Assembly: GCA_019455155.1 (NCBI GenBank)
Contig: JACFMY010000008.1
Span: forward strand, 1-36,145
Source of the DNA: Caldilineaceae bacterium
GTDB taxonomy: Bacteria; Chloroflexota; Anaerolineae; Caldilineales; Caldilineaceae
Direction of reading: 5' to 3'
DNA: 36,145 nt
This document shows positions 15,262 to 19,170 of this stretch, one piece after another. Each line of letters starts with the position of its first letter. Within the stretch, counting starts at the first letter, position 1. The translations under genes and the position numbers were made by a program. The notes below the pieces were generated by a model. That model had not been told where the DNA came from. It saw only the letters and a list, made by a program, of their open reading frames with translations, and did not search any database.

Positions 15262-15313
15262 AGAGCACCCGCGGTTCCCTGCCCTATGGCAGGGCAGACC
15301 TAACTTCACATAG

Positions 15314-15342
15314 AGCGCCGATCTGCTGCAGGTCGGCGCTTT
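15314..15342 (+). terminator. Probable intrinsic terminator after the FabG-like gene
   Basis: AGCGCCGA (15314-15321) pairs perfectly with TCGGCGCT (15333-15340) around an 11-nt loop, followed by a short T-rich tail (TTTCGCTT). A smaller 7-bp hairpin, CCCTGCC/GGCAGGG with loop CTAT, lies just upstream at 15277-15294. The tail is weak, so efficiency is uncertain. Confidence 0.5.
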
Positions 15343-15370
15343 CGCTTGGACGAGACCTTTTGTAGAATGA

Positions 15371-15380
15371 GTTGCGCAAC
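15371..15380. promoter_or_regulatory. 10-bp palindrome GTTGCGCAAC before the LuxR-kelch gene
   Basis: The perfect palindrome lies directly upstream of the ribosome binding site and 2 nt after a TAGAAT box (15363-15368). Its position fits an autoregulatory operator for the adjacent HTH protein. This is a position-based inference only. Confidence 0.35.
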
Positions 15381-15397
15381 GAAAGGTCGTGCAGCCA

Positions 15398-16783
15398 ATG
15401 CCAGATGCCCTTGACACGCGGGAACTTCCGCTGGAGAACCCCCTCAGCGAACGTGAAATGGAGGTGGCAAGCTTGCTGGTGACGGGCGCCAGCAATGCCG
15501 AGATCGCGCGTGAGCTCATAATCAGCCCCCATACCGTCAAGGTCCATCTGCGCAACATCTTCGAGAAGCTCCAGGTCAACAGCCGCACAGAAGCATCCAT
15601 GGTGCTGGTCAAACGGGGCTGGGTGGCAGTTCCTGGTGTCACGGTAGAGCCCGATGAAGGCGAGGAGCCAACACCTCCCGAGCCGCCCCCGCTGGCGCCG
15701 ATTCCCCTGCGCTCGACGCCGTGGCAGCGTGTCTACATGGCGGCCAGCCTCCTCTTCTGTCTCCTGCTCTTGGGCACGCCCTATCTTTCCACCTTGCAAG
15801 GACGCACGACGGCGGCCCTGCTCACCGACAGTCATCTGGCGCGGACCGCGGCGCCGGCCGCGCGGCTGGAGCCCCGCTGGGAGCTACGGACACCCTTGAA
15901 GCGCCCCCTGGCCCGGCTTGCCATGACTGCACTGGACGATCGACTCTTCGTCATGGGCGGCGAGACCCCAGCCGGCGAAGCAGTGGCCGATATGCAGATC
16001 TACGATCTGAGCATCAACGATTGGTCCACTGGCACGCCGCTGCCGTTGCCCCTGGCGAACCTGGCCGCGGCCACACTCAATGGGCGTATCTACGTGGCCG
16101 GCGGGAGCACCAATCCGGACGCGCCGGGGGCGAATCCGGTACCCGTTGACAAGCTGCTCCAATATGACGTGGCGCAGGACGAGTGGAGTGAGCTGCTACC
16201 CTTGCCCTACCCGGTGGCCGGCGCGGGCATGGCGGCTGATGACCGGTATCTCTACGTTGTGGGAGGCTGGGATGGCCGCAATATGCATGATGAAGTCTGG
16301 CGCTTCGAACCGGCGCTCAAGGGGGCGACGGCCGTCTGGGAATTGATTGGCCATCTGTCGAAAGCACGCGCCTACATGGGTGTAGCCGCAGCGGGCGGTG
16401 AGCTCTATGTCGTCGGCGGCTACGATGGGCAGCGGGAATATGACCTGGCCGAGGCGCTGAATCCAATCTCAGGCCAGCGACGTGAGCTGCCCGCGCTTGG
16501 CACGCCGCGTGGCGGCCTGGCGCTGGTCTACGACGGCCTGGCGCTCTACGCGCTGGGAGGCGGCTGGATGCAACCGCTGACCAACCATGAACGTTTCGAT
16601 CTCACCGCCAATAGCTGGAGCAACTTCACATCCCCGATCCAGGGTGAGTGGCGCAGCATGGCCGCGACCGGCGTCAATGGCCGGCTCCACATTGCCGGCG
16701 GCTGGGCAGGCGACTACCTGGACAGCCATCTCCAGTATCAAAGCTCGTTCCGCGCCCTACTGCCCGTGATTACCAGCGATTGA
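15398..16783 (+). CDS. Transmembrane LuxR-type HTH protein with extracellular kelch beta-propeller
   Basis: 461 residues from ATG at 15398; GTG at 15389 is possible but lies only 2 nt from GAAAGG. Residues 15-75 are a GerE/LuxR HTH (LSEREMEVASLLVTGASNAE, then SPHTVKVHLRNIFEKLQV), the DNA-binding domain of NarL/LuxR regulators. A Pro/Glu-rich linker (84-107) leads to one membrane helix (about 112-131). The rest, about 160-460, is a kelch propeller: repeated blade endings FVMGGE, IYVAGGS, LYVVGGW, LYVVGGYDG, LYALGGG and LHIAGGW give about six blades. The N-terminus should be cytoplasmic and the propeller outside. This is a one-component, ToxR-like arrangement rather than a response regulator, as no receiver domain is present. 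Ligand and target genes are unknown; the convergent neighbour acts on cell-wall polysaccharide. Confidence 0.8.
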   Translation: MPDALDTRELPLENPLSEREMEVASLLVTGASNAEIARELIISPHTVKVHLRNIFEKLQVNSRTEASMVLVKRGWVAVPGVTVEPDEGEEPTPPEPPPLAPIPLRSTPWQRVYMAASLLFCLLLLGTPYLSTLQGRTTAALLTDSHLARTAAPAARLEPRWELRTPLKRPLARLAMTALDDRLFVMGGETPAGEAVADMQIYDLSINDWSTGTPLPLPLANLAAATLNGRIYVAGGSTNPDAPGANPVPVDKLLQYDVAQDEWSELLPLPYPVAGAGMAADDRYLYVVGGWDGRNMHDEVWRFEPALKGATAVWELIGHLSKARAYMGVAAAGGELYVVGGYDGQREYDLAEALNPISGQRRELPALGTPRGGLALVYDGLALYALGGGWMQPLTNHERFDLTANSWSNFTSPIQGEWRSMAATGVNGRLHIAGGWAGDYLDSHLQYQSSFRALLPVITSD

Positions 16784-16905: not shown

Positions 16906-18039
16906 CTACCAGTCCAGTGACATCAGGCGCAGCAGTTCATCCGCGCTCGTGGTGTTCCGCACACGAATCCGTTCCAGCTCAAACAGGTGGTCCATACGCT
17001 GGGCCATCCCTTGCACGGTAGTGACGCCTCCCCAGTAGCCCGCACTGTGAAAGACGGCGATCGTGTTCTGGTCGTAATCGCCTGCCGGGTAGGAGACAAA
17101 GCGTGGCCGCGTGCCCAGCTCGAACTCGATGGTTTCCAGGCTGCCCAAGGCCTGCCACACGAGATAGTCCGTGTCCTTCTTCTCCAGGCTGAAATGGTTA
17201 CGACCATGTGATTCGATAGACATACCCGCGGCAAGCATTTCTCGCGCCATGTCCCACGTCAGGTATTCGGGCCGCTCTTCATCGAGAAAATCAGAAACAA
17301 CGAAGAAAGTGGCGGTCATCTCCCGCTCGACCAGCAGAGGAAACGCGTTGGTGTAGTTATCCCGGTACCCGTCATCGAAAGTGAGAATAACCGGATGCTC
17401 GGGCAGCGGAACACCGCGCGTGAGGTAGGCCACCAGGTCGTAGAGGCTGACCGTGGTATACCCTGCCGCCAGCAGGTGGTCAAGATGCTCGGCAAAGCGG
17501 TCCGGCGGTACGGAGAGGTCGGTGCGGTAGACATCGGCGCCAGGCGGCGGCGCGCTGAGATAATGGTACATCAGGATGGGTAGCCGGACCGTGCGCGCGA
17601 TGCCGTCAGGGGTCGGCGCCAGGGTAGGAGAGGGTTCAGCTGCAGGTGTTGGCGTGGGCAACAGGCTGGACAGCAAGATGGCCGGCGTAGGCGTGGCGCT
17701 TGCAGTTGGCGTCGCCTCAGCAGCAGGCGTGAACGTTGGCGTGGCAGGGGTTGGTGTGGCTAGCGTAGTTGCCGTTACACCCTGCAACGTATCTTGCAGC
17801 GTCGCGTGCTCGAGGGGCGCACTTATGGTAACTAGCGGCGAAATCGCGCTGTCAGCGGCTGGAGCGCTCACCGTATGATCCGCGGCGGCAGTGTCCAGAT
17901 ATGGCCCGCCACAGCCGCTGATTGCTATGCCTACAGCGATGATTGAAGTTAAGAACCACCATAGCTGGCACCTGGCGCCGGCTTCTGTTCGGTAGTCAGG
18001 GGTCAGGTATTGGCCCATGGATTGTATGGTATCACGCAT
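16906..18039 (-). CDS. Lipoprotein polysaccharide deacetylase (NodB homology, carbohydrate esterase 4)
   Basis: 377 residues. A hydrophobic segment (26-40) ends in the lipobox ISGC (40-43), so the protein is probably anchored outside the membrane by Cys43. A Thr/Pro/Ala-rich linker (about 50-145) leads to the NodB domain. ILMYHYLS (155-162) opens it, ILTFDDGYRDN (218-228) is motif 1 with the catalytic base and metal-binding Asp, and SHGRNH (277-282) supplies the two metal-binding His of motif 2. SYPAGDYD near residue 317 matches motif 3. CE4 enzymes remove acetyl groups from N-acetylglucosamine in peptidoglycan or other glycans; the exact substrate is not decided by sequence. An alternative ATG at 18018 would keep the signal peptide. 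Confidence 0.87.
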   Translation of the reverse strand: MRDTIQSMGQYLTPDYRTEAGARCQLWWFLTSIIAVGIAISGCGGPYLDTAAADHTVSAPAADSAISPLVTISAPLEHATLQDTLQGVTATTLATPTPATPTFTPAAEATPTASATPTPAILLSSLLPTPTPAAEPSPTLAPTPDGIARTVRLPILMYHYLSAPPPGADVYRTDLSVPPDRFAEHLDHLLAAGYTTVSLYDLVAYLTRGVPLPEHPVILTFDDGYRDNYTNAFPLLVEREMTATFFVVSDFLDEERPEYLTWDMAREMLAAGMSIESHGRNHFSLEKKDTDYLVWQALGSLETIEFELGTRPRFVSYPAGDYDQNTIAVFHSAGYWGGVTTVQGMAQRMDHLFELERIRVRNTTSADELLRLMSLDW

Positions 18040-18291: not shown

Positions 18292-19170
18292 ATGTATAGG
18301 GAAAAAATCCGTGAATACTACGACCACTTGAGCCGTAGTTACCGAAAAGTCGCGGATTATATCATGAGCAACTACTACGATGTGTCTTTCATGACCGCGG
18401 CGCAGCTTGCGTTTGCCGTGGGTGTGGATACGACCACCGTAGTACGCTTTTCGCAACGACTCGGTTACAACGGCTATCCAGAACTGCTCCACGACATCCG
18501 GGAGCAGGTCAAGACTGAGATCTATGCGGCCTACGAGCCAAAGCCGCTAGCAGCAGACGATCCGGCTGGCGTCTTTAAAGACCGCATCGAGCAAGAACGG
18601 CAGAATCTCCAGCAGATGCTGGTGCACAATCCACCGGAACATCTCGAACAGGTAGCTCGCCTCTTTGAGAGAGCCCGGCACATTGTGATCGTGGGCGAAG
18701 GCTATGCTGAAACGGTGGCAGAGATGGTCGCCCAACAATTCCGCCACCGCGGCATTCCAGCAGAGTACCTTCCCAACGATGCAGTGAAGAAGGCAGCCAC
18801 GCTTATGAACGTGGACAGCTCAGTCCTGGTCATCGGCGTGAGCGCCACCGAGTATGGCCGTGACGTTGCCCGGGCCATGGAGTTCGCCCGTGCCCGCGGT
18901 GCCGTCACGCTGGGCGTGATTGGTTCACTGGCCAGTCCCGCCAACCGTATCTCAGATCTCGTTGTTTACGCCCCCACTGACGTCGCCGGGCCGCTGCCTA
19001 GCATCGTCGCCCTCGTCGCCGCACTGAGCAGCCTCGTCCAAGTCGCCGCCAAAGATAGTCCCGAATCCGTGGACCGCCATGTGGAAACCTTCGAGCAGGC
19101 GTACCAATTCCTGGCTCGCGAGGCAGAGATTACGGCGTTGGAAGCGGCAAACGTCGCTGAGGAATCGTAA
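18292..19170 (+). CDS. MurR/RpiR family transcriptional regulator (HTH + SIS)
   Basis: 292 residues, typical length. AGGGGGG lies 5 nt before the ATG. The N-terminal HTH_6 domain (1-77) has the family pattern YRKVADYIMSNYYDVSFMTA...VGVDTTTVVRFSQRLGYNGYPEL. A linker is followed by a SIS sugar-phosphate-binding domain (about 120-260) with HIVIVGEGYAETVAEM and VLVIGVSATEYGRDVARAM. The usual SxSGxT motif of SIS reads GVSATEYG, a divergence that may change ligand preference. Family members sense phosphosugars and control amino-sugar or carbohydrate genes. No sugar catabolic gene is adjacent, so the target is unknown. The neighbouring deacetylase and its own promoter are the nearest candidates. Confidence 0.88.
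   Translation: MYREKIREYYDHLSRSYRKVADYIMSNYYDVSFMTAAQLAFAVGVDTTTVVRFSQRLGYNGYPELLHDIREQVKTEIYAAYEPKPLAADDPAGVFKDRIEQERQNLQQMLVHNPPEHLEQVARLFERARHIVIVGEGYAETVAEMVAQQFRHRGIPAEYLPNDAVKKAATLMNVDSSVLVIGVSATEYGRDVARAMEFARARGAVTLGVIGSLASPANRISDLVVYAPTDVAGPLPSIVALVAALSSLVQVAAKDSPESVDRHVETFEQAYQFLAREAEITALEAANVAEES

Follow-up and report, generated by a model that had tools for sequence, protein, structure and literature searches.

Can a LuxR-type DNA-binding domain be governed from outside the cell by a kelch propeller, through a single membrane helix and without phosphotransfer? The question is raised by one open reading frame in the window, that is, the whole stretch of 36,145 nucleotides of Caldilineaceae DNA that was analyzed. 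The first-pass annotation read its product as a one-component membrane regulator and took a nearby palindrome for its candidate operator. We consider it probable that the protein is a bitopic, membrane-tethered one-component transcription regulator, with a NarL-type helix-turn-helix (HTH) domain inside and a kelch propeller sensor outside. Comparisons were made over 102 distinct loci, comprising 32 loci, the best 80 of 560 from a search with a family alignment (A1), and the window, with identical ones removed. The features of the locus are as follows.

15312–15342, + strand: 14-bp terminator-like hairpin with a T-poor tail, lying after the SDR gene and ahead of the promoter (−23 kcal/mol, z −4.0)
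15360–15371, + strand: TTGTAGAATGAG, the window's counterpart of the family 12-mer TTGTGGAATAAT (9 of 12), with a −10-like TAGAAT at 15363–15368
15371–15380, no strand: palindrome GTTGCGCAAC, judged to be chance
15389–16783, + strand: open reading frame of the HTH–TM–kelch protein, 464 aa, GTG start, with an alternative ATG at 15398
15440–15601, + strand: GerE/LuxR (NarL-type) HTH, residues 18–71 (Pfam PF00196, E 4.5e-20)
15626–15712, + strand: disordered Pro-rich linker, residues 80–108, with low pLDDT; 20% proline over the 102 loci
15719–15796, + strand: single transmembrane helix, residues 111–136 (AlphaFold2 model, hydrophobicity peak)
15878–16741, + strand: six-bladed kelch propeller, residues 164–451 (Pfam, model, fold match, conserved GG pairs of the blades)

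Domain architecture and membrane topology

The order of a LuxR HTH, one transmembrane helix, and a kelch propeller is borne out by Pfam, an AlphaFold2 model, hydrophobicity, and the orthologues. In the window protein, GerE scores 71.5 bits against a curated cut-off of 23.5, and Kelch_1 matches five stretches (E 5e-41). A Pfam search of the protein for a receiver domain (Response_reg) gave no match, in agreement with the earlier description of an architecture free of phosphotransfer, and among the 18 Pfam families run on it, the winged helix Trans_reg_C gave none either. The protein carries no kinase domain. The AlphaFold2 model, which was built from A1 (29 sequences; L031, with one stop, was left out), has a mean pLDDT of 89.3 and a pTM of 0.70, and consists of a four-helix HTH (residues 21–75), the helix at 111–136, and propeller strands at 164–451, with a low-confidence linker (pLDDT low at 90–96). 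The propeller matches solved kelch domains, including Keap1, NS1-BP, and the designed SAKe6, with Z of 36–38 (Foldseek, VIA-align), and the nearest solved relatives of the isolated HTH mostly come from NarL-type response regulators; they include VraR, NarL, DesR, FixJ, and also GerE. No other kelch gene above the cut-off lies outside the 15389–16783 frame in the window's genome. A second membrane-anchored LuxR copy was sought among the seven next-best matches (L002–L008, apart from 30 further matches), and none of the seven has the HTH–TM–kelch order; on reading, L002, L003, and L008 carry a receiver ahead of the HTH, L007 begins similarly, and L004–L006 are partial or ambiguous.

The window protein has one hydrophobic peak, with a mean Kyte–Doolittle value of 1.62 over 21 residues. 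A peak between the HTH and the propeller occurs in all 102 proteins (at least 1.6 in 94 of them, lowest 1.19), and only one of the 102 has a second peak of at least 1.6. Because a DNA-binding domain at the N-terminus has to stay in the cytoplasm and only a single helix follows, the propeller is likely to lie outside the membrane and the HTH in the cytoplasm (N-in/C-out), as family knowledge suggests. A propeller placed in the cytoplasm, named earlier as the outcome that would speak against the reading, is not what the evidence suggests: one transmembrane helix follows the DNA-binding N-terminus, and 19 of 20 close relatives have cysteine-free propellers, compared with 41 of 357 neighboring ORFs of 250–400 aa. 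This near-absence of cysteine would fit export in the close relatives; over the whole set, only 24/102 propellers are cysteine-free. In positive-inside counts, Lys and Arg residues are more numerous before the helix in 51/102 proteins and fewer in 26/102, while the column-wise means run in reverse (1.14 before vs. 1.36 after); the two ways of counting disagree, and the charges favor neither orientation.

The proline in the linker is often consecutive, with PP in 63/102 and PPP in 13/102 linkers of about 35 aa, compared with PPP in 3/102 for the remaining ~426 aa. In the CadC linker, according to the available text of PMC5936718, consecutive prolines stall the ribosome, EF-P relieves the stalling, and CadC is held to 3–5 molecules per cell. 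That a similar limit on copy number applies to the HTH–TM–kelch protein is a guess by analogy.

Distribution and conservation of the family

HTH–TM–kelch is a conserved, usually single-copy Chloroflexota family. A first search of the genome contigs with the window protein alone gave no match, and alignment A1 as the query did. Matches at E up to 1e-15 occur in 34 of 41 genomes, the window's own included (in G003 only as a fragment); the 34 include 15 of the 16 relatives that belong to other families within the class. In a sample of the phylum, 31 of 400 genomes match at 1e-25, possibly a lower bound with four candidates scored per genome for most genomes; they are the genome of the window, 23 further members of its class, and seven outside the class, among which four alignments span the HTH and propeller jointly. 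Most matching genomes have one full-length copy. Relatives from the A1 search (best 80 of 560 confirmed) are titled, for example, Caldilineaceae, Litorilinea, Thermoflexus, Anaerolineales, and Ardenticatenaceae, and the full architecture is present at 101 of the 102 distinct loci, the exception being L174, from which part of the propeller is missing. The gene seems dispensable, since no match was obtained in at least five near-complete genomes from the same taxonomic family (G007, G015, G019, G021, and G024).

Conservation over the 102 loci is highest in the HTH, with a mean information of 3.23 bits per column, followed by the kelch propeller (2.31), the helix (1.70), the linker (1.58), and the juxtamembrane stretch (1.17). 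Within the recognition helix, Thr49, Val50, and His53 are invariant, and Lys51 (100/102), Asn56 (99/102), and Arg55 (97/102) are nearly so. Lys51, Val52, and Arg55 occupy what we take to be the DNA-contact positions of NarL. An HTH without DNA-contact residues in homologues had been named as a second result that would count against the proposal; the recognition helix is instead nearly invariant. The HTH appears to be constrained more strongly than the propeller, which argues against a vestigial HTH.

Upstream region and neighboring genes

The palindrome GTTGCGCAAC lies where the first-pass annotation had placed it, but only in a loose sense does it stand just before a ribosome binding site: measured from the nearest AGG, the GTG is only 2 nt away and the ATG 11 nt. 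Its candidacy as an operator was rejected, as it occurs at chance level (the 6.85 Mb genome contains it 22 times, and the reversed control 23 times) and was not seen upstream of 17 family orthologues. The palindrome sits where the predicted transcription start would fall.

What is conserved upstream is the layout TTTG-N15-TTGTGGAATAAT. The 12-mer TTGTGGAATAAT is matched at 11 or 12 of 12 positions in 11 of the 102 loci, a level that none of 510 windows drawn at random from these loci attains; in eight of the 11, an in-frame start codon follows after 6–7 nt, and TTTG often stands 15 nt before. Near-identical TTTG-N15-TTGTGGAATAAT-N6-(A/G)TG arrangements occur in L040, L046, L047, L051, L052, L053, and L096, a candidate leaderless start conserved over genera. 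Judged from the sequence, the layout is probably an extended −10 (TRTGn) sigma-70 promoter that would give a leaderless or near-leaderless mRNA. A score of at least 9 of 12, which is that of TTGTAGAATGAG in the window, is also reached by 29 of the 510 control windows, and a sigma-70 promoter scan ahead of the gene in the window found no promoter. The 13-mer TTGTGGAATAATG has four matches in 25 genomes, all four in front of an HTH–TM–kelch gene. The 11-mer TGTGGAATAAT has 47 matches in 41 same-family genomes vs. 10 for the reversed control; its exclusivity to this gene was rejected, with 10 of the 47 matches at loci known to hold the gene. For the 12 largest clusters of neighboring genes, some of them small, shared upstream words occur in fewer loci; the ksgA word, in 6 of 10 loci, is taken to be coding sequence of the preceding gene. 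Since the strong hairpin at 15312–15342 separates it from the preceding SDR gene, the HTH–TM–kelch gene is probably transcribed alone.

One neighbor is strongly recurrent while the others change: a convergent Xer-type tyrosine recombinase (Phage_int_SAM_1 and Phage_integrase; for example L038:7935-8924), which occupies position +1 or +2 in 36 of the 102 loci and in every case runs on the opposite strand. Among the 81 loci with at least 2.5 kb downstream it is present in 32, and by falling band of identity it accompanies 17/19 (42–60%), 5/9, 4/25, and 6/27, with 0/1 for the window itself. In the window, the usual Xer position is occupied by a polysaccharide deacetylase ORF (16906–18039, − strand), and a rearrangement just downstream of the regulator gene is therefore probable; the best match to Xer in this genome lies on a different contig. 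The tie between regulator and Xer is loose, because Xer is also found in six relatives without a match for the regulator gene (G006, G007, G015, G019, G021, and G024); the two genes also lie apart in G000, G009, and G034. Nothing about the Xer neighbor points to a sensory pathway. Upstream neighbors are variable, lepA–ksgA being the commonest in close relatives (names from reading translations), and no constant membrane-protein neighbor was seen over the collected loci. Farther along the window, a regulator with an RpiR-type HTH and SIS is encoded at 18292–19170 (+ strand).

Two words recurred upstream of Xer, and a dif-like site was then sought beside it; no shared inverted repeat was found. 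Repeated CGTATAGTCA words surround the start of the Xer gene in the four related loci L046, L047, L051, and L096, likewise with no inverted repeat. In the closed genome G034, the regulator gene is ~1.0 Mb from dnaA, which, with dnaA taken as the origin, places it away from both ends of the replication axis. A location at the terminus was dropped as a proposal, the GC skew of G034 being weak (20 stretches) and dnaA lying off the skew switch that adjoins the gene.

Proposed mechanism and comparison with known systems

In the mechanism that we favor, the N-terminal NarL-type HTH would be kept in the cytoplasm, with one helix crossing the membrane, and the external six-bladed propeller would bind a ligand or partner, which might be a small molecule, a peptide, a glycan, or an envelope protein. 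Binding would alter the chains in their dimer state or their geometry, and the flexible Pro-rich linker would relay this change so that the paired HTHs grip the operator or do not. Both DNA binding as a dimer and sensing by the propeller are suggested by knowledge of related families.

Other readings keep much of the same layout and differ in what the parts do. The same topology could signal by cutting, whereby an external signal leads to proteolysis near the membrane and frees the HTH as a soluble factor. A long flexible linker joins the HTH to the helix (low pLDDT at 90–96), and conservation is lowest in this linker and the juxtamembrane stretch; both points would suit such a route, but the juxtamembrane alignment columns hold no conserved motif, no protease gene was recognized among the recurrent neighbor clusters listed (most without a Pfam run), and cleavage of CadC, once proposed, was then rejected according to the available part of PMC5936718; we regard release by cutting as unlikely. 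Somewhat more doubtful is a propeller that constitutively docks an envelope protein or transporter, so that the regulator reports the state of that partner, in the style of CadC and LysP, and the kelch domain is no ligand sensor. CadC senses lysine via LysP (PMC5936718, in its available part), and many of the nearest solved kelch domains, such as those of Keap1 and LZTR1, were solved with protein or peptide partners according to their entry titles; against this, function is not carried by similarity of fold, and the neighborhood offers no constant membrane protein.

The recurrent recombinase lends itself to a further reading, in which the protein would anchor the chromosome at the membrane during segregation or division, would regulate no genes, and would have Xer as its neighbor for that reason. 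An HTH conserved above the sensor would agree with it, as would the frequency of Xer at +1/+2 (36/102, and 17/19 in the 42–60% band); it is at odds with the six relatives that have Xer and no match for the regulator, with the three genomes in which the two genes lie apart, and with the position of the gene in G034, and we hold it to be very improbable. A membrane-tethered regulator with an external propeller sensor thus remains the reading that we prefer. A wider version of it is decidedly speculative: a class-wide family of Anaerolineae type, in which a NarL-type HTH was re-wired from phosphotransfer to reading an external kelch domain directly, with an extended −10 promoter of its own, unusually conserved and often leaderless, and a tie to Xer, perhaps coupling envelope state with chromosome resolution. 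As the model membrane-integrated regulators use winged helices, a class-wide NarL-HTH/kelch family would show the same topology reached with other parts. The poorly cultivated Chloroflexota would gain a conserved sensor, the ligand of which could be searched for directly with the soluble propeller.

Two groups of proteins share a propeller outside, an HTH inside, and the lack of a kinase: the periplasmic propeller–TM–LuxR/HTH proteins of Bacteroidota (Reg_prop/Y_Y_Y), in which the domain order is reversed, and the winged-helix–TM–PD40 proteins. Both groups use propeller families other than kelch. A literature search that combined Reg_prop, LuxR, and Y_Y_Y found no paper. A search for the HTH–TM–kelch family found no description, which is weak evidence of novelty, as subscription papers and preprints were mostly outside its scope; LuxR–kelch fusions are not mentioned in the available parts of PMC5936718, PMC6978683, and PMC9218822.

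The six-bladed kelch fold is shared with Keap1, NS1-BP, and the bacterial NanM/YjhT mutarotases, but in the window protein it is fused to a transmembrane helix and an HTH. There is no sign of the enzyme NanM in its sequence: profile PF24996 scores 44.6 bits against a cut-off of 45, with one blade as its best stretch, and TIGR03547 scores 35.3 bits against a cut-off of 256. The type of HTH is that of the NarL/FixJ response regulators, from which the protein differs in having no receiver, an N-terminal HTH, and a membrane anchor. Membrane-integrated regulators make up 3% of one-component systems, and ToxR-like regulators are defined by a cytoplasmic N-terminal DNA-binding domain, a flexible linker, one transmembrane helix, an extracytoplasmic C-terminal domain, and no phosphoacceptor (both from the available part of PMC5936718). 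The window protein has the order of DNA-binding domain, linker, transmembrane helix, and C-terminal domain in common with ToxR, CadC, and TcpP, and many family members also have the consecutive linker prolines of CadC; unlike the ToxR-like regulators, with their winged helix, it combines a NarL/GerE HTH with a kelch propeller in Chloroflexota hosts. By analogy, it most likely works as a ToxR-like regulator, yet it is not classed as one, because it lacks the winged helix by which that class is recognized.
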